Assembly (NCBI GenBank): GCA_003563255.1
Contig: PWSL01000441.1
Span: forward strand, 1 to 15,595
Source of the DNA: Desulfonatronospira sp.
GTDB lineage: Bacteria > Desulfobacterota > Desulfovibrionia > Desulfovibrionales > Desulfonatronovibrionaceae
DNA length: 15,595 bases
Direction of reading: 5' to 3'
Shown: positions 1,044 through 15,362 of the stretch, piece after piece
Numbering within the stretch: position 1 is the stretch's first letter
How the letters are laid out: each line of letters begins with the position of its first letter
Made by a program: the position numbers and the translations under genes
The notes under the pieces: model-generated
Databases searched by the model: none
Told to the model about the DNA's origin: nothing
Seen by the model: only the letters and a program-made list of their open reading frames with translations

Positions 1044-1697
1044 ATGCAATACCAGGATACCATGTTTTCACCTGCCTCAGGTTCCAGGGCGGCTTTGCTG
1101 GATCTTGTCCAGATGCTCACCGGCCTGGCCCTGGTGGTGTTTATGTATCTGCACGCTCTGTTTGTGGCCAGCATTCTGCTTGGTCCCCAGGTTTTCAATA
1201 CCCTGGCTGACTTTTTCGAAAGGTACTACCTGGCCCAGGTGGGAGGCCCGCTTCTGGCCCTGGTCTTTCTGATCCATTTTTTCATGGCCGCCCGCAGGAT
1301 ACCTTTTTCCCAGCAGGATCAGAAAAAAGTCTTGTCCTTCAGCAGATTGCTTGCTCACAGGGACACCTGGCTGTGGACTGTGCAGGTGGTTACAGCCATG
1401 ATAATCCTTATCATGGGAGCCATTCATATCTGGGTGGTGCTAACGGACCTGCCCATCACCGCTGATAAAAGCGCCGCCAGAATTCAGACCGGATTCTGGC
1501 TTGGCTTTTACCTCCTGCTTCTGCCCATGGTGGAACTGCATGTGGGAGCAGGCTGGTACAGGCTGGGGGTCAAGTGGGGGGTCATTAAGAGCAGTGCCCG
1601 CAAAAAGGCCAAAAGGGCGGAATATTATATCACCGGGTTTTTTATCCTCCTGGGCCTGATTACCCTGGCCAGGTTCATGTTTGTTTCAGTTTCATAA
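1044..1697 (+). CDS. frdC: Fumarate reductase / succinate dehydrogenase di-heme cytochrome b subunit
   Basis: This 217-residue membrane anchor of a quinol:fumarate oxidoreductase passes electrons between menaquinol and the iron-sulfur subunit. About five hydrophobic helices are visible (roughly 22-46, 65-85, 110-135, 149-172, 192-214). His37, His78, His128 and His166 lie in four of them, as expected for the four axial ligands of two b hemes. From my recollection of Wolinella FrdC, Glu59 aligns with its quinol-site Glu66. Glu164, two residues before a heme ligand in VELHVG, aligns with its E-pathway Glu180. This places the protein with the di-heme, menaquinone-linked type rather than the E. 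coli FrdCD type. An AAGGAG site lies 5 bp before the ATG. The flavoprotein gene follows after 9 bp. Confidence 0.93.
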   Translation: MQYQDTMFSPASGSRAALLDLVQMLTGLALVVFMYLHALFVASILLGPQVFNTLADFFERYYLAQVGGPLLALVFLIHFFMAARRIPFSQQDQKKVLSFSRLLAHRDTWLWTVQVVTAMIILIMGAIHIWVVLTDLPITADKSAARIQTGFWLGFYLLLLPMVELHVGAGWYRLGVKWGVIKSSARKKAKRAEYYITGFFILLGLITLARFMFVSVS

Positions 1698-1706
1698 GGC
1701 TTATCC

Positions 1707-3527
1707 ATGCGCATAATTTACACTGATCTTCTTTGTATCGGAGCCGGCCTGGCCGGTGAAAGGGTGGCCATAGAAGCGGCCCGGGCCGGGTTTGAGACCA
1801 TTTGCCTCAGCCTTGTCCCGCCCAGACGTTCCCATTCCTCGGCCGCCCAGGGCGGGATGCAGGCAGCTCTGGGCAATTGCATCAAGGGTGACGGCGACTG
1901 CCCTGATGTACACTTCCAGGATACGGTCAAGGGCTCGGACTGGGGATGCGATCAGGAAGTGGCCCGGATGTTCGCGGATAACGCCCCGCTGGCCATCAGG
2001 CAGATGGATCACTGGGGAGTGCCCTGGAACAGGGTGGTGCCGGGAAAATCCTGCTATTACAAGGGCGGGGAAAAGCTGGAAAAGGAAGAATCAGAGGACA
2101 AATCCGGCCTCATCACCGCCAGGGATTTCGGGGGCACGGCCAAGTGGCGGGCCTGTTACTGCAGCGACGGTACCGGCCATGCCATGCTTTACACCATGGA
2201 CAGCGTGGCCGTACAGCACGGGGTGCAGGTGCATGACCGCACCGAGGCATTAAGCCTTATTCATGACCAGGAGAGGTGCCACGGTGCAGTTGTCAGGTGT
2301 CTCAAAACAGGGGAGCTGAGGGCTTATATATCCAGGGCTACACTCATTGCTTCCGGAGGATTCGGGCGAATCTACCGGGCTTCCACCAATGCCGTGATAA
2401 ACGAGGGCGGGGGACAGATAATCGCCCTGGATACCGGGGTGGTGCCTCTGGGCAACATGGAGGCGGTACAGTTTCACCCGACAGGCATAGTGCCCACGGA
2501 CATCCTGGTCACCGAAGGGTGCCGCGGAGACGGGGGGACACTTCTGGACGTAAACCTGGAGCGGTTTATGCCGCAGTACGAACCAGAAAAGGCGGAACTG
2601 GCCTCCAGGGACGTGGTTTCCAGGCGCATGCAGGAGCATATGGCCAAAGGGATGGGGGTAAAAAGTCCCTACGGGGAGCACCTGTGGCTGGATATCAGGC
2701 ACCTGGGCCGGGAGCACATCACCACCAAGCTGCGGGAAGTAGATGAGATCTGCAAGAATTTTCTGGGGGTAGACCCGGCAGAGTCTTTGATACCGGTTCG
2801 TCCCACCCAGCATTACAGCATGGGCGGGGTAAGAACGGACAAAAACGGCGCCGCATATGGTCTGAAAGGGCTTTTCAGCGCCGGAGAAGCCGCCTGCTGG
2901 GATATGCACGGGTTCAACCGCCTGGGGGGCAATTCCCTGGCCGAGACAGTGGTGGCCGGCATGCTGGTGGGCCGCAGTGTGGCCGGGTTTCTTCAGGAGG
3001 AAGACATGAGGGTGGACACCGCACTGGTGCGCGGCGAACTGAAAAAACAGCAGGAACGTATCGATACCCTCAGGTCCAGTACCAGAGGCGAACCCCCGTT
3101 TGAAGTGCGAAACCGCATGCAGGATATCCTCATGGATTACGTGGGCATTTTTCGCAATGAAAAAGACCTGCACCTGGCAGTGGAAAAGCTGCAGCAGGTC
3201 CTGCAGAGTGCGGAAAATCTAAAGCTTTCTTCCAGCGGAGCAGGAGCCAGCCCGGAACTGTCCCTGGCCCTTCGCCTGCCCGGCATGGTCAGGCTGGCCC
3301 TGTGCGTGGCCTTCGGGGCCCTGGAGAGGCGCGAAAGCCGGGGGTCCCATGCCAGGGAGGATTATCCGGCCCGAAATGACCGGGACTGGCTGGTGCGGAC
3401 CCTGGCCTTCTGGCCGGGAGGCCGGGCCCTGCCCAGGCTGGAGTACGAACCTGCAACAAAGGTAGTGGAAATTCCTCCTGGAGACAGGGGGTATGGCGGA
3501 TGTGAAGTCATCAGTGCTGAAAGTTGA
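1707..3527 (+). CDS. frdA: Fumarate reductase / succinate dehydrogenase flavoprotein subunit
   Basis: This 606-residue catalytic subunit interconverts fumarate and succinate on covalently bound FAD. A Rossmann motif GAGLAGE opens the protein. His43 in RSHSSAAQGG is the FAD-linking histidine. The dicarboxylate site is complete: His257 (HPTG), the EGCRGDGG loop at 270-277, Arg301 (SRDVVS), His369 (RPTQHYSMGG) and Arg405 (FNRLGGNS). As I recall it, this numbering nearly equals that of Wolinella QFR (43, 257, 301, 369, 404). The protein ends soon after IPPGDRGYGG, a normal family end, so it does not look truncated even though a mobile element lies 32 bp past the stop. Direction of catalysis cannot be read from sequence; the anchor type favours fumarate reductase or a reversible enzyme. 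Confidence 0.95.
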   Translation: MRIIYTDLLCIGAGLAGERVAIEAARAGFETICLSLVPPRRSHSSAAQGGMQAALGNCIKGDGDCPDVHFQDTVKGSDWGCDQEVARMFADNAPLAIRQMDHWGVPWNRVVPGKSCYYKGGEKLEKEESEDKSGLITARDFGGTAKWRACYCSDGTGHAMLYTMDSVAVQHGVQVHDRTEALSLIHDQERCHGAVVRCLKTGELRAYISRATLIASGGFGRIYRASTNAVINEGGGQIIALDTGVVPLGNMEAVQFHPTGIVPTDILVTEGCRGDGGTLLDVNLERFMPQYEPEKAELASRDVVSRRMQEHMAKGMGVKSPYGEHLWLDIRHLGREHITTKLREVDEICKNFLGVDPAESLIPVRPTQHYSMGGVRTDKNGAAYGLKGLFSAGEAACWDMHGFNRLGGNSLAETVVAGMLVGRSVAGFLQEEDMRVDTALVRGELKKQQERIDTLRSSTRGEPPFEVRNRMQDILMDYVGIFRNEKDLHLAVEKLQQVLQSAENLKLSSSGAGASPELSLALRLPGMVRLALCVAFGALERRESRGSHAREDYPARNDRDWLVRTLAFWPGGRALPRLEYEPATKVVEIPPGDRGYGGCEVISAES

Positions 3528-3894
3528 AGTGCAAAATCATCTCTATGGTGAATCTTATATCACTACAGCGACACTTTATTTGAACTTGAAGGGGACTGGC
3601 TCTTTTGCCGCACAGAGCCCAGCCATTTTACGGTTTGAGTTCGGCAAAAGTGCCTGTCCCCGGTGGCTTGGGCAATAATTAACACAAAGTGGCTCTGTAG
3701 TGATAACTGAACAGTCAAAGGTTTTTTTGTAACCATCTGTTTTTATTATTTTTTATAGCAGATCAGTATATCTTTAAGGCCAGACCAGATATCTATCCAA
3801 ATTTATAGACTTTATTTCTTTCAACCAGGAACGAAGAACCAGGAACTTTGAACTCTCAAGGTGATAAGATTGTAATAGAATATAGGTCTTACAG
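3528..3894 (+). other. 367-bp gap within the frd operon
   Basis: frdA and frdB are normally adjacent, but here 367 bp separate them. The gap contains a 144-bp TA-flanked hairpin element (3560-3703), an AT-rich stretch at about 3721-3775, and a short repeated phrase (ACCAGGAAC-type, about 3822-3846). A 61-codon open frame across 3493-3678 overlaps the end of frdA and then runs through the element. It has no family resemblance and is not called as a gene. No convincing promoter or terminator was found, so frdB may depend on read-through or on a promoter I cannot identify. Confidence 0.7.
3560..3703 (+). repeat. MITE-like hairpin element, copy 1 (TA-flanked)
   Basis: The ends are inverted repeats: CACTACAGCGACACTT at 3561-3576 and its complement at 3687-3702 with two mismatches. 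Inside are longer arms: GGGGACTGGCTCTTTTGCCG at 3591-3610 and its complement at 3642-3661, with two mismatches in 20 around a 31-nt loop. A second copy in the opposite orientation lies at 7271-7415. Both copies are bordered by TA dinucleotides (here 3558-3559 and 3704-3705), consistent with a 2-bp TA target duplication as made by IS630/Tc1-type transposases. There is no coding capacity. The element would fold into a long RNA hairpin within the frd transcript. Confidence 0.85.
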
Positions 3895-4641
3895 ATGAAC
3901 AGAAAGCTTGTATTTTCCATATTCAGGTATAATCCGCAGGAGCCAGGCTCCAGCCCCGGGATGCAGGAATTCAGGTTTGAGGAGACTGAAAACCTGAATC
4001 TTTTTGTGGCGCTGAATCTCATCCGGGAAAAGCAGGATCCATCCCTGCAATTCGACTTCTGCTGCCGGGCGGGTATCTGCGGGGCCTGCGCCATGGTCAT
4101 CAACGGAAGACCCGGGCTGGCCTGCCGCACCAAGACTGCTGAACTGCCGGATAAAATAGTCCTGATGCCTTTGCCCGGATTCAGACTGGTGGGGGATCTG
4201 TCCGTGGATACCGGGGCCTGGTTCAGGTCCATGAACGAAAGGGTCAGGGCCTGGATACATACTGATGAAGATTTTGATCCGGATGCTCCTGAAGTGGTCA
4301 TGGACAACCATGTTGCTGAACAGATTTATGAACTGGACCGCTGCATTGAGTGCGGATGCTGCATCGGGGCCTGTGCCACGGCCCAGCTGCGAAGCGACTT
4401 TATGGGAGCCGCAGCCATGAACCGCATAGCCAGGTTTATGCTGGACCCAAGAGATAAGCGTAATAACAGGGATTATTTCGAAATCGTAGGTACGGACCAG
4501 GGTATTTTCGGGTGCATGGGTCTTCTGGGTTGTCAGGACGTTTGCCCCAAGAATCTGCCTCTTCAGGATCAACTGGCCCATGTCCGGCGTAAAATGGGCC
4601 GACAGGCTCTGAAAAACATCCTGCCGTGGTACAGGAATTAG
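3895..4641 (+). CDS. frdB: Fumarate reductase / succinate dehydrogenase iron-sulfur subunit
   Basis: This 248-residue protein carries electrons from the cytochrome b hemes to FrdA FAD through three clusters. The [2Fe-2S] ligands are Cys57, Cys62, Cys65 and Cys77. The second domain holds CIECGCCIGAC, with Cys150, 153 and 156 plus Cys217 for [4Fe-4S], and Cys160, 207 and 213 for [3Fe-4S]. The spacing matches E. coli FrdB closely. The third cluster has Cys at every expected position, so all three clusters should form. The ATG has only a weak AGG ribosome site 8 bp upstream. The gene is cut off from frdA by the repeat element but sits 27 bp before the fumarase genes. Confidence 0.95.
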   Translation: MNRKLVFSIFRYNPQEPGSSPGMQEFRFEETENLNLFVALNLIREKQDPSLQFDFCCRAGICGACAMVINGRPGLACRTKTAELPDKIVLMPLPGFRLVGDLSVDTGAWFRSMNERVRAWIHTDEDFDPDAPEVVMDNHVAEQIYELDRCIECGCCIGACATAQLRSDFMGAAAMNRIARFMLDPRDKRNNRDYFEIVGTDQGIFGCMGLLGCQDVCPKNLPLQDQLAHVRRKMGRQALKNILPWYRN

Positions 4642-4657
4642 ATTCACCCAGGTACAC

Positions 4658-4663
4658 AAGGAG
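4658..4663 (+). promoter_or_regulatory. Ribosome binding site of fumarase alpha
   Basis: AAGGAG lies 5 bp before the ATG at 4669. It is one of the stronger Shine-Dalgarno sites in the operon and fixes that start. Confidence 0.6.
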
Positions 4664-4668
4664 AACAG

Positions 4669-5505
4669 ATGCGAAGTATTGATGCCCGGGAAGTCACCAG
4701 GCAGGTTTCACAAATGGTGGTGGAGGCCAATATGGTGCTGCCCGGGGATGTTTCCACCGCCCTGGAAAAGGCCTGGGAAAACGAGGACAACCCTTCCGGC
4801 CGGGAAATCCTTGGGCAGTTGCTGGAAAACGCCCGGCTGGCCCGGGAAATGAGTCTGCCCCTTTGTCAGGATACAGGGCTGGCGGTTTTTTTTGTGGAAC
4901 TGGGCCAGGAGTGCAGGTTGCGGGGAGATTTGTACCAGGCTGTAAATGCAGGGGTCAGCAGGGGTTATGAAGAGGGCTTTCTGCGTAAATCAGTCTGCAA
5001 TCCCCTGAGCAGAAAAAATACCGGCGACAATACTCCGGCGGTTATTCATCTGGATCTGGTACCCGGAGACAGGCTTAAGATCCGGTTCATGCCCAAGGGG
5101 GGAGGCAGCGAAAATATGTCCGGTCTGGCCATGCTTACTCCATCCCAGGGTCTGGAGGGGGTTAAGGAATTTGTGCTGCAAAGGGTTGCCGGGGCCGGTC
5201 CCAATCCATGTCCTCCGGGAATCATTGGAATCGGCATCGGGGGATCTTTTGACCAGGCACCCCTGCTGGCCAAAAAAGCCCTGTTCAGGCCCCTGGATGA
5301 TATCCACCCGGAGCAGGAAGTGCGGGACCTGGAAGCAGAACTTTTCGAGGCTGTGAATGCCCTGGGGATAGGTCCCATGGGCATGGGAGGCAGAACCACA
5401 TGCCTGGGGGTGAAGATCCAGGCCGCGCCATGCCACATTGCTTCTTTGCCTGTGGCGGTGAATATCCAGTGTCATGCAGCCAGGCACAAGGAGGTCAGCC
5501 TGTGA
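4669..5505 (+). CDS. Class I fumarate hydratase, alpha subunit (TtdA/FumA-N type)
   Basis: This is the N-terminal-half subunit (278 residues) of a two-subunit, [4Fe-4S]-dependent fumarase or related hydro-lyase, which interconverts fumarate and malate. Visible motifs are LCQDTG with Cys66, SRKNTGDNTPAV, MPKGGGSENMS, CPPGIIGIGIGGSFD with Cys181, and GGRTTCLG with Cys245. Cys66, Cys181 and Cys245 are the likely three cluster ligands. The position directly after frdCAB indicates fumarase rather than tartrate dehydratase, although the two share this fold. The final codons overlap the GTG start of the beta subunit (GTGA), as expected for subunits made in equal amounts. Confidence 0.93.
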   Translation: MRSIDAREVTRQVSQMVVEANMVLPGDVSTALEKAWENEDNPSGREILGQLLENARLAREMSLPLCQDTGLAVFFVELGQECRLRGDLYQAVNAGVSRGYEEGFLRKSVCNPLSRKNTGDNTPAVIHLDLVPGDRLKIRFMPKGGGSENMSGLAMLTPSQGLEGVKEFVLQRVAGAGPNPCPPGIIGIGIGGSFDQAPLLAKKALFRPLDDIHPEQEVRDLEAELFEAVNALGIGPMGMGGRTTCLGVKIQAAPCHIASLPVAVNIQCHAARHKEVSL

Positions 5506-6044
5506 GTCGGGAGATCAAATTGAGTACACCCCTGCAGGAAGAGGATGTCTTACACCTGAGAACCGGGGACAAGGTTCTTTTAAGCGGGCATATCTATACC
5601 GCCAGGGATGCAGCCCACAAAAGGCTTTTACAGGATCTGGACCAGGGTATTGAGCCCCCCTTTAATCTCCAGGGGGCTGTTGTATATTATGTTGGCCCCA
5701 CTCCGGCCCCTCCCGGGCGGGTGATCGGATCTGCCGGTCCCACCACCAGTTCCCGTATGGATGCCTACACACCTCGCATGCACCAGCTGGGGGTCAGGGC
5801 CACCATCGGCAAGGGCCGCAGGAGCCAGGAAGTTAGGCGCGTACTGCAGGAGCAAAAGGCGGTCTACCTGGGGGCCACCGGCGGGGCCGGGGCACTCTTG
5901 TCCAGGTGTATTACCGGTTCCTGGGTGCTGGCCTTCGAGGAACTGGGCACAGAAGCCATCCGGGAACTGGAAGTCCTGGATTTTCCCCTCCTGGTGGTCA
6001 ATGATGCCTTTGGCGGGGAACTTTACGTCACCGCCGGGCGGTAA
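5502..6044 (+). CDS. Class I fumarate hydratase, beta subunit (TtdB/FumA-C type)
   Basis: This is the C-terminal-half partner (180 residues) of the preceding subunit; together they make the complete class I fumarase. Motifs are SGHIYTARDAAHKR, GPTTSSRMD, IGKGRRS, GGAGALLS and LEVLDFPLLVVNDAFGG, which form the swivelling C-terminal domain. The start is GTG at 5502. A strong AAGGAGG lies at 5488-5494 with a 7-bp spacer, and the similarity to the family begins at SREIKL. An ATG further upstream at 5400 keeps the frame open but would overlap the alpha gene by about 100 bp and add unrelated residues, so I reject it. The GTGA overlap with the alpha stop suggests translational coupling. Confidence 0.92.
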   Translation: MSREIKLSTPLQEEDVLHLRTGDKVLLSGHIYTARDAAHKRLLQDLDQGIEPPFNLQGAVVYYVGPTPAPPGRVIGSAGPTTSSRMDAYTPRMHQLGVRATIGKGRRSQEVRRVLQEQKAVYLGATGGAGALLSRCITGSWVLAFEELGTEAIRELEVLDFPLLVVNDAFGGELYVTAGR

Positions 6045-6659: not shown

Positions 6660-7025
6660 TCAAGTACAGTGTTCCGGCTCAATGTCCAGGATCAAGGCAA
6701 CAGACTTTTTAACGGCATCCATTTCCGCTGAGCTGATCTGCCCGAGCTTTTCCAGGAACCTTTGATGGCTCAAGGATCTGAGCTGATAACAGTCGATGGC
6801 CGATTTTTTTTCAAGGGCATTGGACACGCTGGGTTCCAGGCAGACAAAAAAAGGATTGCCTTCCCAGTTCGCATTCCAGGCGGTTATGGGGACGACAATG
6901 GCTAACTTGAGATATTTGCTATGACCGCCATTCAAGATGACAACAGGGCGCGTCTTTTTGATTTCATCTCCCAGTGTGGGCGCAAGGTTGACCCGATAAA
7001 TGTCACCGATGTGCAAAGTCTTCAC
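6660..7025 (-). CDS. MazF/PemK-family toxin (probable endoribonuclease)
   Basis: This protein of up to 121 residues has the MazF/PemK layout: GDIYRVNLAPTLGDEIKKTRPVVIL at the N terminus, the following VVPIT strand, and a closing helical part. Family toxins cut mRNA and are neutralised by a co-encoded antitoxin. The gene overlaps the upstream antitoxin by 23 bp, typical of these modules. The start is uncertain. GTG at 7023-7025 lies directly against an AGAGG ribosome site, leaving no spacer, while TTG at 7014-7016 sits 8 bp from AGAGGG and would give 118 residues starting LHIGDIY. An in-frame stop just upstream excludes longer forms. I favour the TTG but give the outer limit. Confidence 0.87.
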   Translation of the reverse strand: MKTLHIGDIYRVNLAPTLGDEIKKTRPVVILNGGHSKYLKLAIVVPITAWNANWEGNPFFVCLEPSVSNALEKKSAIDCYQLRSLSHQRFLEKLGQISSAEMDAVKKSVALILDIEPEHCT

Positions 7026-7245
7026 CCTCTATGTCTTCAAACTGATTCGGATAGGCCCCCTGCCCAATCATTTCCATGGCCTGCTGCCTCTTGAGAGCCC
7101 GAAGCCTTTTGCGATCTTCCCTGATCTGGGCCTTGACTGCCTGACGCATGTACTCACTTAAGCTTTTGTAGTTCAATTCTTTGTAGACTTTCTTGATGAA
7201 CTCATAGTTTTCAGGCTCTATTTGGATTTTGGTCTGAATAAGCAT
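7003..7245 (-). CDS. Ribbon-helix-helix-type antitoxin
   Basis: This 80-residue partner of the MazF/PemK-type toxin comes first in a minus-strand operon. The N-terminal part, IQTKIQIEPENYEFIKKVY then YKSLSEYMRQAVKAQI, fits a short beta strand followed by two helices, as in ribbon-helix-helix DNA-binding antitoxins. The acidic tail FEDIEGEDFAHR is likely the toxin-wrapping segment. The start at 7245 is chosen because GAGAGG lies about 7 bp upstream. The frame stays open to 7311, but that extension enters the inserted repeat element and is not expected to be native. Family antitoxins usually repress their own promoter; here the promoter region would fall within or beyond the element. Confidence 0.82.
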   Translation of the reverse strand: MLIQTKIQIEPENYEFIKKVYKELNYKSLSEYMRQAVKAQIREDRKRLRALKRQQAMEMIGQGAYPNQFEDIEGEDFAHR

Positions 7246-7270
7246 CGAAAACCTCTCATTTCTGTCCTTA

Positions 7271-7415
7271 ACACTACAGCGACACTGTGTGAAAATTTTC
7301 GCCTCGGCCACCGGGGACAGGCACTTTTGCCGACCTCAAACCGAAAAAAGGCAGGACTATCCGGCGGCAAAAGAGCCAGTCCCCTTCCAGCCTAAATCAA
7401 GTGTCGCTGTAGTGT
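7271..7415 (-). repeat. MITE-like hairpin element, copy 2 (TA-flanked)
   Basis: This is a 145-bp element homologous to 3560-3703 in inverse orientation. Terminal inverted repeats are near perfect: ACACTACAGCGACACT at 7271-7286 and its complement at 7400-7415. Internal arms are GGGGACAGGCACTTTTGCCG at 7313-7332 and its imperfect complement at 7364-7383. TA lies on each side (7269-7270 and 7416-7417); the wider flanks also read TTAA if the outermost element base is counted as target. Arms are far better conserved between copies than the central loop, as expected if folding is selected. It ends 25 bp before the antitoxin start. Confidence 0.85.
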
Positions 7416-10706: not shown

Positions 10707-13004
10707 ATGAAGCACTGGATAAGAACATTTGGCATTCTATTGTTTCTGCTCTTTTTGATCTCTTCTTGTGACAGAGCGCCTAAACCTGTAGCTGAGCCTG
10801 TGCCAGGTGTTACCGACAACGAAATCCTCATAGGCTCTTCCCTGGCCCTGGAAGGTCACGCCGGATACCTGGGAACCCAGAGTCTCCGTGGAGCGCTCTC
10901 ATATATAAAATACATCAATGAACAGGGCGGCATCCATGGCAGGAAGATTAGGGTAATCTCATATGATGATGGATATGACCCTCCAAGGTGCGTATTTAAT
11001 ACCCAAAAACTTATCAATGAGGACAAGGTCTTTTCCCTTTTCAATTATGTCGGCACCCCTACATCGGTCAAGATCATCCCTATTGTCCAGGATGCCAGAA
11101 TCCCGCTTCTCGGCCTGATCACCGGGGCAAACGCCTTAAGAGATCCTTTCAAGCGCTACATCATCAATGTCCGGGCTTCCTATTACCAGGAAACAGGTGC
11201 GATGGTTAAACATCTTGTGGAAGATCTGGATATAAGGAAGATAGCTGTCTTTTACCAGTATGATGACTATGGTTTGGACGGCCTTAGAGGAACGGAGATT
11301 GTCCTGAAAAGATTCGGCCTCACCCCGGTGGCTACGGGAAGCTATATCCGCGGGACCCTGGATGTGCAGGATGGACTGGACAAGATCAGGGCTTCCGGAG
11401 CCCAGGCGGTGATTATGATCGGCACCTACGAACCATGTGCCAGGTTCATAAAGCTGGCCAGGTCAAAAGACTTCAACCCTATCTTCCACAATGTCTCCTT
11501 TGTAGGTTCCGATGAGTTGGCCAGGAAACTGGGCAAGCAAGGGGAGGGAGTCTTTATCACCCAGGTGGTTCCACCGCCTGAGGCACCGGAAATAAGAACC
11601 CTGCTTTGGGGTGCAGAGGAATACAGTAGTTTACTTAAAAAATACTTTCCTGAAGATGAACTCAGCTTTGTAGGGCTTGAGGGCTATATCAATGCCAGAG
11701 TACTGGTGGAAGGCCTTAAAAGGGCAGGCAGGGATTTAAACCGGGAGAAATTCATTGACGACATTGATTCCATACAGGATTATTCCCTGGGCATTGCCAA
11801 TACCCTGACATTTAGTCCTGATGATCGCCAGGGATTGGAGAGGGTATATTTTACCCGGATAAAAGACGGTCGATTTGACTTGGTTGTTGACTGGGAAAGG
11901 ATAAGGAGAGCCCGGGAAGTTCCAGGGCTTACAGACAACGAAATCCTTATAGGCTCTTCCCTGGCCTTGGAAGATCACGCCGGGTACCTGGGAACAGAGA
12001 CCCACCACGGAGCGCTCTCTTATATTAATTTTATCAACGAACAGGGCGGCATCCATGGCAGGGAGATAAGGCTGATCGCCTATGATGATGGATATGATCC
12101 TCCAAGGTGTGTGGCCAATACCAAAAAACTTATTAACGAAGACAAGGTATTCGCCCTCTTCAATTATTTAGGCACCCCTACATCGGTCAAGATCATCCCT
12201 ATTGTCCAGGAGGCCAAAATCCCGCTTCTTGGTCTGTTCACCGGGGCAAATGCCTTAAGGGAACCCTTTATGCGCTATATCATCAATGTCCGGGCCTCCT
12301 ATTATCAGGAAACGGGTGCGATGGTTAAGCATCTTGTGGAAGATCTGGATATAAGAAATATAGCTGTCTTTTACCAGGATGATGATTATGGTTTCGACGG
12401 CCTTAAAGGAACCGAGGTTGCTCTGCAAAAATACGGCCTCACCCCCGTTGCCACCGGCAGTTATATCCGGGGAACCCTGGATGTGGAGGATGGACTGGAC
12501 AAGATCATGGCCTCCGGAGCCCAGGCGGTGATTATGATCGGCACCTACGGCCCCTGCGCCAGGTTCATAAAGCTGGCCAGGTCAAAAGACTTCAACCCCA
12601 TCTTTCACAATGTCTCCTTTGTGGGTTCCGAGGAGTTGGCCAGGAAACTGGGCAGGGAAGGGGACGGTGTTATTATCACCCAGGTGGTACCACCTCCCGA
12701 GGAAAGGGTTCTTCTTCCGGCTGCAGAGGAATATACCCGATTGCTGGCGAAATATTATCCGCAACGCACCCCCACCTTTGCAGGATTTGAGGGCTTCATC
12801 AATGCCAAAATCCTGATGGAGGGCCTTAGGCGGGCCGGACGAGAAATCACCAGGGAAGACCTGGTCAATGCCATAGAAACCATGGATATTTACTTTGTGG
12901 GTGTAGGCGCCAAAGTATCATTTGGGCCCAATGACCGCCAGGGGTTGGATCAGGTGTACTTTACCAGGATTGAAGACGGTAAAGTGACCATGTTTACAGA
13001 TTAG
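10707..13004 (+). CDS. Tandem-duplicated branched-chain amino-acid-type periplasmic binding lipoprotein
   Basis: This 765-residue extracytoplasmic receptor is made of two copies of a type I periplasmic binding domain (Peripla_BP_6/LivJ-like). A hydrophobic signal at 8-20 ends in LISSC, so Cys21 is a probable lipid anchor. Copy 1 spans about residues 32-404 and copy 2 about 405-765, offset exactly 373 codons (1119 bp). Both share DNEILIGSSLALE, GALSYI, NEQGGIHGR, YDDGYDPPRC, RYIINVRASYYQETGAMVKH and GSYIRGTLDV. Each keeps two cysteines (DPPRC and PCARF), perhaps a disulfide. Family length for one domain is about 370, so this is a fusion by duplication. No permease or ATPase gene is adjacent; instead a histidine kinase starts 29 bp later. 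A role in sensing is therefore more likely than transport. Confidence 0.9.
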   Translation: MKHWIRTFGILLFLLFLISSCDRAPKPVAEPVPGVTDNEILIGSSLALEGHAGYLGTQSLRGALSYIKYINEQGGIHGRKIRVISYDDGYDPPRCVFNTQKLINEDKVFSLFNYVGTPTSVKIIPIVQDARIPLLGLITGANALRDPFKRYIINVRASYYQETGAMVKHLVEDLDIRKIAVFYQYDDYGLDGLRGTEIVLKRFGLTPVATGSYIRGTLDVQDGLDKIRASGAQAVIMIGTYEPCARFIKLARSKDFNPIFHNVSFVGSDELARKLGKQGEGVFITQVVPPPEAPEIRTLLWGAEEYSSLLKKYFPEDELSFVGLEGYINARVLVEGLKRAGRDLNREKFIDDIDSIQDYSLGIANTLTFSPDDRQGLERVYFTRIKDGRFDLVVDWERIRRAREVPGLTDNEILIGSSLALEDHAGYLGTETHHGALSYINFINEQGGIHGREIRLIAYDDGYDPPRCVANTKKLINEDKVFALFNYLGTPTSVKIIPIVQEAKIPLLGLFTGANALREPFMRYIINVRASYYQETGAMVKHLVEDLDIRNIAVFYQDDDYGFDGLKGTEVALQKYGLTPVATGSYIRGTLDVEDGLDKIMASGAQAVIMIGTYGPCARFIKLARSKDFNPIFHNVSFVGSEELARKLGREGDGVIITQVVPPPEERVLLPAAEEYTRLLAKYYPQRTPTFAGFEGFINAKILMEGLRRAGREITREDLVNAIETMDIYFVGVGAKVSFGPNDRQGLDQVYFTRIEDGKVTMFTD

Positions 13005-13033
13005 AACATTTTTATTGAGTAGCTGCCGGAAAA

Positions 13034-15058
13034 ATGGACATCCTTCGAAAGCTGAGTTTTAATAACAAGGTGTTATTCAGCACCACACTGATCGTGGTCC
13101 TTCTGGCAATAGCCGTGCTTGTTGTTGTCCAGTGGGTACTGCTTCCCAGTCTGACCTCAGAGCTTAAAAGAAGAGGAGTGGCCATTGCTCAAAGTGTAGC
13201 CAGTCTAAGCACTGGCTATATCCTGGTGGGAGACAAGCCTGCCCTGACCGGCCTGATTTTCGATGAAAAACAGCTTGAAGAGAGAAGACCCATTGTATCG
13301 TATATACTTGTCCTCGATATCTACCAGGAGGTGCTGGCCCATACCTTCATTGGCGTATTTCCCCAGGGGATCGTGGAAGCCAATATAGTTACGCCGGACC
13401 AGGAACGAAGCATCAAGCCCATTGAGATTCCTGAAGGACATATCTACGATATAGCAGTGCCTGTAAAAGAAGGCATATACAAGATTGGAACGGTTCGTGT
13501 GGGGGTCAATAAAGCAGTTATAGACCGGCTCATTGGCAAATTGGCCCTCATCCTTCTGGGGGCCATATCCGGGGTTATTGTGGTGGGATTTTTTATCAGC
13601 TACCGGTTGTCAAGGTATATTACCCGCCCTGTCACGCAACTCACCCGTTTGGCGGATGAAATCAGCCGTGGGAACCTGGATGTAACCTTTGATTTTGGCC
13701 AGAAGGTCAGGTGCTGGGAGATGCAGGAATGCGACAAAACCGATTGCCCGGCCTATGGTCAAACCGATGCAATGTGCTGGTTTACTGAAGGGACCCTTTG
13801 CACCGGGTCTCCCATGGGAAAATTTCCTGAAAAACTTGAAGAGTGCTATAAATGCAAAGTATATAAAACGCATGGCGGTGATGAGATAGTTCAGCTTGCA
13901 GATGCCTTTTTCTTCATGACCAGGAATTTAAAAATCTCCAGGGATGAATTGAAGAGAGCCTATGATTATCAGAAAAACCTCATTGAGAGTTCCATCGACG
14001 GGATTGTTGCTATGGATGAAGAGGACAACATTGTGATCTTCAATGAAGGCGCGGAAAAGATCTTAGGTTATAAATTTGATGAAGTTGCCGGGAAGATGAG
14101 TGCGGCGGATCTCTATCCGCCCGGCCAGTTCAAGAAGGTCAGGGAAGTCCTTTATGGCGATGGATATGGGGGAACCGGCAAGCTGGCAAACTACGAGACC
14201 ACCATTTTAAACAGTGCCGGCGACCAAGTTCCAGTGTGGCTTTCGGCCAGCATCATATATGAACATGAAAAGGTCTTGGGGACCGTGATGTTTTTTCAGG
14301 ATTTGACCGAAAGGAGGAGGTTGGAAAAAAAGGTTCTGGAATCGGAAAAGTTGGCTACCATAGGACAGGGAGTTGCCTACATCTCTCATGAAATTAAGAA
14401 TCCCTTGATGGTAATCAGTGGCTTTGCCCAACAGGTTCTGCGCGACATAGACCAGGATGACAAAAACAGGGCAAAATTGGAAATTATCATAAATGAAGTC
14501 AAAAGATTAGAGGGATTTCTGATAGATATAAGTGATTTTACCAAACTGTCCAAGCCAAAAAAGAATATGGCCAGCATCAATAGTGTGGTGGAGGAAGTCT
14601 CCACCCTTTTTGAGCATGAATTTGAAGTCCGTCATGTAGTATTTGACAAATCCATTGATCCCCATATTCCGGAGACCTTATTAGACCCAAAACAGCTTAA
14701 ACAGGTACTCATAAATATTGTCAAAAATTCGGTGGAAGCCATGCCGCAAGGGGGGAAGCTGTCTATCGAAACATGGCTTAAGGATGACTGCATTGAAATC
14801 CTCATTAGTGACACAGGAAAAGGAATTGCTCCGCAGGATTTAAAAGATATTTTCAATCCATTTATTACCTCTAAACCCAAAGGTACAGGGCTTGGGCTGG
14901 CCATTTCCCGCAAGATTATTGAAGACCATGAAGGTGAAATTTCCATAAAAAGCAAGGTGGGTGAAGGAACCGTCTGTACCATCGTCCTTCCTGTTCAAGG
15001 TCCGGATGGAAAAGAGCTGGAAGCACTCCATACGGCCGGGCAGGGATCAAACACGTGA
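13034..15058 (+). CDS. Membrane sensor histidine kinase with Cys-rich HAMP insert and PAS domain
   Basis: This 674-residue sensor has TM helix 1 at about 13-37, an extracytoplasmic region at 38-167 and TM helix 2 at about 168-189. A HAMP domain follows, whose first helix (190-215) and second helix (283-302) are separated by an insert with Cys227, 233, 238, 248, 256, 271 and 274, including CWE, CPAY, CW and GTLC motifs. A PAS domain spans about 313-425. The kinase core follows: H-box SHEIKNPL with His452, N-box around Asn565, G1 DTGKGI at 593-598, and G2 GTGLGL at 617-622. It lies 29 bp after the duplicated binding protein, its probable ligand receptor. No response regulator gene is visible downstream in this window. 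The ribosome site is weak (GGA), consistent with coupling to the upstream gene. Confidence 0.93.
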   Translation: MDILRKLSFNNKVLFSTTLIVVLLAIAVLVVVQWVLLPSLTSELKRRGVAIAQSVASLSTGYILVGDKPALTGLIFDEKQLEERRPIVSYILVLDIYQEVLAHTFIGVFPQGIVEANIVTPDQERSIKPIEIPEGHIYDIAVPVKEGIYKIGTVRVGVNKAVIDRLIGKLALILLGAISGVIVVGFFISYRLSRYITRPVTQLTRLADEISRGNLDVTFDFGQKVRCWEMQECDKTDCPAYGQTDAMCWFTEGTLCTGSPMGKFPEKLEECYKCKVYKTHGGDEIVQLADAFFFMTRNLKISRDELKRAYDYQKNLIESSIDGIVAMDEEDNIVIFNEGAEKILGYKFDEVAGKMSAADLYPPGQFKKVREVLYGDGYGGTGKLANYETTILNSAGDQVPVWLSASIIYEHEKVLGTVMFFQDLTERRRLEKKVLESEKLATIGQGVAYISHEIKNPLMVISGFAQQVLRDIDQDDKNRAKLEIIINEVKRLEGFLIDISDFTKLSKPKKNMASINSVVEEVSTLFEHEFEVRHVVFDKSIDPHIPETLLDPKQLKQVLINIVKNSVEAMPQGGKLSIETWLKDDCIEILISDTGKGIAPQDLKDIFNPFITSKPKGTGLGLAISRKIIEDHEGEISIKSKVGEGTVCTIVLPVQGPDGKELEALHTAGQGSNT

Positions 15059-15094: not shown

Positions 15095-15130
15095 AACCCA
15101 AGAAGTAAAGAAACCTTAACCGTCCGTTCG

Positions 15131-15298
15131 CCCATGTTGAATGGCTGCGCCTACACTTCGTGTATTCAACTGGGTAAAAAGACTCACCCAGTTGAATACG
15201 GCTTTGCCGTAGACCGAAGGTCTATTCAACCGGGCGAGCTCAAGACGCCCAGTTAAACCCTGCTGCGCAGGAAAGCTTTCAGCGTTGTTTAACCGGGC
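15131..15298. repeat. Array of three cloverleaf-forming repeats
   Basis: There are three units about 57-60 bp apart. Each has an outer stem CCCA-GTTGAAT/ATTCAAC-GGG or CCCA-GTTAAAC/GTTTAAC-GGG, enclosing two small hairpins. Unit 1 (15131-15174) holds GGC-TGC-GCC and TACAC-TTC-GTGTA. Unit 2 (15188-15233) holds ACGGC-TTT-GCCGT and AGACC-GAA-GGTCT. Unit 3 (15247-15298) holds CCTGC-TGC-GCAGG and a weaker AAAGC/GCGTT stem. Stem sequences differ between units while pairing is kept. An alternative fold pairs neighbouring units: 15162-15175 with 15186-15199 is a perfect 14-bp stem. Confidence 0.75.
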
Positions 15299-15362
15299 AG
15301 ACAAAGGTCGCAATGGAAGGCAGGAAGGTTTTTTCATTTGCCGCTATCTGCTTTAACCGTCA

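Follow-up and report, generated by a model that had tools for sequence, protein, structure and literature searches.

A tandem solute-binding lipoprotein encoded beside an sCache_3_2 sensor kinase in Desulfonatronospira sp.: a candidate ligand receptor from a family conserved in related genomes

Introduction

Type I periplasmic binding proteins that adjoin and feed a sensor kinase are represented by LuxP/LuxQ and TorT/TorS, the outer domain of LuxQ being of the PDC/Cache type. To our knowledge, only a handful of such binding-protein-assisted receptors are known. AmiC of Pseudomonas (1pea, 1qnl, 1qo0), which we take to be a cytoplasmic amide receptor holding AmiR, has no membrane receptor, unlike the pair described here. 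Dret_0059 of Desulfohalobium retbaense (5ere) presumably has a binding domain and tandem PAS-like sensor domains in one chain, without a kinase; Desulfohalobium belongs to the same order as the organism studied here. 5ere is presumably a single polypeptide, unlike the separate lipoprotein and kinase of the present locus, and its Foldseek comparison with a single-chain model of the pair from L061, another locus of the family, aligned 567 columns at 21 A rmsd, a piecewise match at best. The 'possible leucine/isoleucine/valine-binding protein' of Rhodopirellula baltica (4kv7) is single-domain, unlike the tandem protein considered here.

The present locus resembles LuxPQ and TorTS in that its binding-protein gene adjoins a kinase gene, is conserved there, and lies outside transporter loci, and in that the kinase has a Cache-type outer domain. 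It differs from them in having a Peripla_BP_6 (LivJ-like) lipoprotein, an sCache_3_2 receptor, a two-CW domain and, in the common form of the family, a receiver-STAS partner. With 98.7 vs 1200 on the LuxQ model and 115.8 vs 676.5 on the TorS model, the kinase falls well short of both and is neither LuxQ nor TorS proper. A description of such a lipoprotein-kinase pair was not found in the literature; the search was limited, so that absence from print is weakly tested. The pair is real and conserved, and it belongs to a known class of device, of which it represents a less common, tandem variant.

Lipoprotein and Kinase Genes of the Window

The window, i.e., the whole stretch of DNA analysed, is one entire contig (G000:C309, 15,595 bases) of a draft genome, G000, of 3.5 Mb in 532 contigs and 99% completeness. 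Its nearest match is locus L074, titled Desulfonatronospira sp., a genus of the Desulfovibrionales in the Thermodesulfobacteriota. The features considered are as follows.

10707..13004, + strand: tandem type I solute-binding lipoprotein with two Peripla_BP_6 domains, 765 aa (ORF, Pfam)
10797..11918, + strand: binding domain D1 (conserved-position comparison, dN/dS against L074)
11919..13001, + strand: binding domain D2 (conserved-position comparison, dN/dS against L074)
13034..15058, + strand: sensor histidine kinase, 674 aa, with TM, sCache_3_2, TM, HAMP, two-CW, PAS, HisKA and HATPase_c (ORF, Pfam, NF045718)
13151..13540, + strand: extracytoplasmic sCache_3_2 domain, kinase residues 40-169, proposed dock of the lipoprotein (Pfam)
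13709..13870, + strand: two-CW domain, kinase residues about 226-279 (NF045718)

The ORFs and Pfam matches bear out the arrangement given in an earlier note on this DNA: a two-domain lipoprotein, a gap of 29 bases (13005-13033) and a kinase, with no transporter genes adjoining. The lipoprotein matches Peripla_BP_6 in two stretches (386.9 bits, cut-off 31.7), and the two domains, which that note had called near-identical, are only 75% identical (272/364 aa). The signal peptide ending in ISSC and the transmembrane segments of the kinase are our own reading of the sequence. Pfam places sCache_3_2 at kinase residues 40-169 (49.2 bits, cut-off 28.4), so that an extracytoplasmic PDC/Cache domain is present, followed by HAMP (191-220), PAS matches (315-426), HisKA (447-505) and HATPase_c (551-655).

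The cysteine cluster that had been assigned to the HAMP domain follows closely on the HAMP match and is part of an already described domain, two-CW, for which the kinase passes the cut-off of NF045718 (37.9 bits, cut-off 35). Of 97 relatives, 78-81 have residues at the columns of its Cys 238, 248, 271, and 274, and in these the four cysteines are 96-99% conserved; in the others, the two-CW insert is absent or the match is cut short. In the alignment, most of the relatives displayed keep only the second half of the domain, with its four cysteines.

A search against Rfam returned nothing at gathering scores. Of the 537 bases of contig left 3' of the kinase, the 211 searched (15110-15320) are part of a repeat family, matched 55 times in G000, in which units of about 53 bases (15248-15300 in the window) often stand in tandem elsewhere in the genome; this family may be the reason why the assembly breaks at the window end. 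Elsewhere in the window, positions 1044-6044 hold fumarate reductase/succinate dehydrogenase-like genes, of which the cytochrome b subunit was matched by profile and the flavoprotein and iron-sulfur subunits, followed by an apparent two-part fumarase, were recognized by our own reading. Two small overlapping ORFs on the minus strand (6660-7311), with weak MazF-like and ParD-like matches below curated cut-offs, are a possible toxin-antitoxin pair.

Conservation of the Pair

The pair was followed through 150 genomes around that of the window, its own included. The lipoprotein matched at E ≤ 1e-40 in 95 of them; two (G019 and G059) hold a distant relative only (about 1e-44) and were dropped, leaving 93 carriers. 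In the remaining 57/150 the lipoprotein was not found, and the system is thus not universal. The kinase lies directly downstream of the lipoprotein on the same strand in 92/93 carriers, with 2 to 292 bases between match ends; in the last one (G060), the lipoprotein copy stops at a contig edge and the kinase match is on a different contig. Because of this adjacency the pairing is far beyond chance, and a chance neighbourhood is ruled out. The co-occurrence that the earlier note had asked genome searches to decide is thereby borne out, although not as a feature of tandem lipoproteins: the matches in carriers are single-domain except in G000, G003, and a broken copy in G037, so that single-domain versions are the rule and the doubling is a sub-variant.

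A scan with one genome per species gave 444 coding stretches. Among the best 80 of these 444, which were examined, the kinase stands behind the first domain in 69 and behind the second domain in nine tandems, and two end before a kinase could appear; it is therefore next in 78/78 loci with room for it. Of 395 genomes drawn evenly from the phylum, 16 have a lipoprotein match at E ≤ 1e-100.

The sCache Receptor as Constant Partner

The lipoprotein has paralogues that are 34-39% identical to the L061 lipoprotein, and 20 of the 56 lower-scoring places listed in the search of the 150 genomes, mostly the better ones, were fetched (L177-L196). A profile built from the outer domains of 97 main-family kinases matched 22 of 1027 reading frames across 26 loci. 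All 20 fetched paralogue loci have one match each, directly downstream of the binding protein; L152 has two, one beside each of two binding proteins; the five distant loci L161-L165 have none. Six of the 20 paralogue receptors were scanned, and all have sCache_3_2, HAMP and PAS, with GGDEF-EAL ends in four and kinase-receiver ends in two. The sCache receptor is the constant partner of these binding proteins and the output part changes, since 20/20 paralogue loci keep the sCache domain while the outputs of the six scanned receptors vary. Those pairs with GGDEF-EAL ends are apparently binding-protein-fed c-di-GMP receptors. Two of the 20 paralogue loci have a permease some 3 kb away.

Other arrangements were also seen. 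In G187 and G487, a kinase that is dissimilar and has Cache matches forms a row with a receiver and the binding protein, and in G254 a Cache-HAMP protein is adjoined by two binding proteins; no Cache domain was found by Pfam in the G222 kinase. Related sCache/two-CW kinases lack a neighbouring binding protein in 20/20 loci (positive control 20/20), and the sCache domain therefore does not need one. When sCache domains with and without a binding protein were compared, there were 11 columns at which both partnered groups agree against the stand-alone group; the window kinase is mixed at these columns, and no weight is put on them. The window's genome has a second sCache kinase (G000:C370; L217 137-2224), 31% identical over residues 4-305, and a binding protein was not seen beside it in its 3.8 kb contig.

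Regulator and Operon Neighbours

In 89/93 carrier genomes, a relative of a receiver-STAS regulator is encoded no more than 1.7 kb past the kinase match; the receiver and STAS domains themselves were identified in the member from L061. The four exceptions are the tandem carriers G000, G003, and G037, and G074, where the gene is on another contig. At E ≤ 1e-30, G000 gave no receiver-STAS relative, and none was found in six core tandem loci having at least 1.2 kb behind the kinase (L062, L063, L068, L071, L116, and L142); in L068, a short receiver is encoded 5 kb further on, on the opposite strand.

The 51 loci with full flanks include the kinase in 50, the regulator in 47, a redoxin in 30, a rhodanese protein in 28, a MauE/DoxX protein in 28 and formate dehydrogenase in 33; the one kinase missed, in the tandem-type L068, was found by a separate comparison. 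In L061 (13962-16734) and similar loci, a ResA-like redoxin, a rhodanese-ended protein and a MauE/DoxX protein are in an operon behind the regulator, a set that looks like a putative kind of thiol relay. The formate dehydrogenase alpha subunit (E ≤ 1e-100) is within 10 kb of the locus in 16 of 25 low-contig genomes, which are not independent of one another, vs 0.37 expected. This proximity extends over 8/12 genera, and the orientations differ. None of the ten tandem loci checked has formate dehydrogenase, so that the link is claimed for the single-domain form only.

An MMPL-type transporter fused to a histidine kinase (Pfam) is in an operon beside the pair in L067 (5661-8642), with relatives recognized by similarity in L168 (13896-16880) and L170 (4768-7854).

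The Tandem Form

Eleven tandem loci are related to the window: ten full ones, the window included, and the contig-broken one in G037. Their D2 halves group together (support 98 in a larger tree, 92/83 in a smaller one), from which the doubling that they share is judged old. G187 has another tandem (L161 10650-12971), in the order kinase-receiver-lipoprotein and with more than one Cache match in the kinase, whose halves are nearly identical and sisters in the tree. Since these halves are sisters, G187 doubled independently of the window's group, and by these trees the doubling arose at least twice. A tandem produced by faulty assembly is ruled out by the like tandems in other assemblies (L074, L062, L064, L066, L067, L068, L071, and L116) and by that of G187, a one-contig genome.

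Eight core tandem kinases form one clade (99), its branching consistent with that of their lipoproteins, and D1, D2 and the kinase branch consistently within the core group. Desulfonatronospira and G037 are found there among loci titled Desulfobacteria, Desulfobacterales, Desulfobacteraceae or Deltaproteobacteria, and G006, another genome of the genus Desulfonatronospira, has the ordinary form. This distribution suggests that the core tandem pair was transferred as a unit. The tandem kinases of L066 and L067 fall outside the core clade, and that of L064 is cut off by a contig end. The receiver-STAS operon is retained in L067; in L066 its place is taken by a receiver-kinase protein.

In 85 single-domain relatives, 113 positions show conservation of at least 95%; D1 and D2 each keep 108 of them, and a decayed second half is thus ruled out. 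Compared with L074, dN/dS is 0.096 for D1, 0.068 for D2 and 0.139 for the kinase (540 codons). Between D1 and D2, dS is 0.62 and dN 0.14. Thirteen alignment columns separate D1 from D2 across 10 tandem loci, three of them being gaps in one half. The predicted fold of the tandem lipoprotein alone, from nine sequences, had a pLDDT of 53.9 and was too poor for use.

Transporter Genes

The best NCBIfam match of the lipoprotein is a branched-chain amino acid transporter subunit model, at 96.9 bits and far under its cut-off of 477; a LivJ-type ABC transporter subunit would be expected to reach this curated score and to have permease genes alongside, and the lipoprotein does neither. BPD_transp_2 permeases occur somewhere in 141 of 150 relatives. 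None was found at E ≤ 0.001 in G000, a 532-contig draft, nor in G002, which is among the 93 carriers of the pair; the control for the search gave a signal in 12/14 genomes. LivHMGF genes beside homologues of the lipoprotein, on whose absence the earlier note had let its reading hang, are not in evidence, six permease fragments having given 0 matches in 111 loci of the lipoprotein family, many of them with short flanks. Ordinary Peripla_BP_6 proteins served as controls: from 26 matches in three low-contig relatives, three orthologues and two sCache-linked paralogues were set aside, and the other 21 proteins lie in 20 loci, with a permease in 18/20 and an sCache match in 0/20. The reading as a transporter subunit is rejected on these permease searches, set against the control loci.

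Docking and Ligand

The L061 pair was modelled on one chain, with the intergenic stop read as Gly, and folded well domain by domain, with a pLDDT of 84.5 and a pTM of 0.62 but no interface measure; we estimate that the binding protein, if well folded, would reach almost this pTM by itself. The binding domain of the model is best matched by 4kv7, and the aligned rows cover that domain only. A mirror-tree comparison over 62 loci, in which the fast evolution of the kinase sensor has to be borne in mind, gave the lipoprotein a partial correlation of -0.08 with the sensor vs 0.42 with the catalytic part of the kinase and 0.20 with the regulator, and lends docking no support. The case for docking is made by outputs that are exchanged while the outer domain stays constant, and by analogy. 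As for the ligand, Phe of the SFVGA stretch seems to stand in place of the acidic residue that presumably holds the amino group in LivJ structures, a change that would make amino acids less likely.

Competing Explanations

That the lipoprotein is the substrate-binding subunit of an ABC transporter encoded elsewhere, its position next to the kinase being an accident of regulation, is very improbable. The NCBIfam match and the permeases present somewhere in most relatives are what such a reading would draw on; the lack of a detectable BPD_transp_2 permease in G000 and in G002, and the contrast between 0/111 family loci and 18/20 ordinary ones, speak against it, and for the window's genome the searches appear already nearly to refute it. 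An arrangement in which lipoprotein and kinase are co-expressed without contact, the lipoprotein scavenging or buffering a solute that the sCache domain binds itself, or the two merely sharing a regulon, is less far-fetched and still improbable. It fits the mirror-tree, with no excess correlation between lipoprotein and sensor, and the related sCache kinases that have no binding protein beside them; usually an sCache domain binds its small ligand directly. Mere co-regulation, however, predicts neither that binding proteins of one kind should adjoin sCache receptors whose outputs differ widely nor that the pair should persist in the core tandem type, which lacks the receiver-STAS gene.

A separate question within the tandem form is whether D1 and D2 bind different ligands, which together with the two-CW cysteines would make a true multi-input sensor. 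The conservation and constraint of both halves, the 13 columns that tell them apart in 10 tandem loci and the independent doubling in G187 agree with this; the nearly alike halves of G187 fit dosage or a built-in dimer equally. We consider two ligands rather unlikely.

Proposed Mechanism

The reading that we consider probable is that a sensor kinase has taken over a transport-type (LivJ-like) solute-binding protein as its dedicated receptor for a ligand. The co-receptor role that the earlier note had given the lipoprotein accords with the kinase adjoining it in 92/93 genomes and the permease fragments matching 0/111 loci. Architecture, pair conservation, the lack of permeases nearby, the conserved and constrained halves and the constant sCache partner are computed results. 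For docking, ligand, direction of control and the role of the cysteines, we infer the following path. The membrane-anchored binding protein would close on a small solute and, once closed, dock outside the membrane on the sCache_3_2 domain of the kinase, altering kinase activity. HAMP would carry the signal inward; behind it, the four-cysteine two-CW domain may check metal or redox state inside the cell before the signal reaches PAS and the catalytic core. In the common form, the signal would pass to the receiver-STAS protein encoded next door, whose gene is often in an operon with those of the thiol redoxin, the rhodanese protein and the MauE/DoxX protein and often near formate dehydrogenase. 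The window represents the tandem sub-form: its lipoprotein has two binding domains, its kinase is diverged, and a receiver-STAS gene was not found in G000.

Significance

A wider reading is possible, if doubtful: sulfate reducers would have a modular family in which a captured LivJ-type lipoprotein heads sCache_3_2 receptors with swappable outputs (kinase and receiver-STAS, kinase-receiver, GGDEF-EAL), the main member would watch periplasmic formate metabolism, and the tandem of the window, with two outer sites and an inner four-cysteine switch, would be a several-input sensor. The family is large, with 444 coding stretches in a species-level collection (best 80 of 444 examined). Its transport and signalling relatives contrast cleanly within the same genomes, which makes the change from transport protein to sensor testable. 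The tandem form is a natural test of multi-site input, and the system, chromosomally linked to formate dehydrogenase, may be one of the principal means by which many sulfate-reducing bacteria sense their environment.
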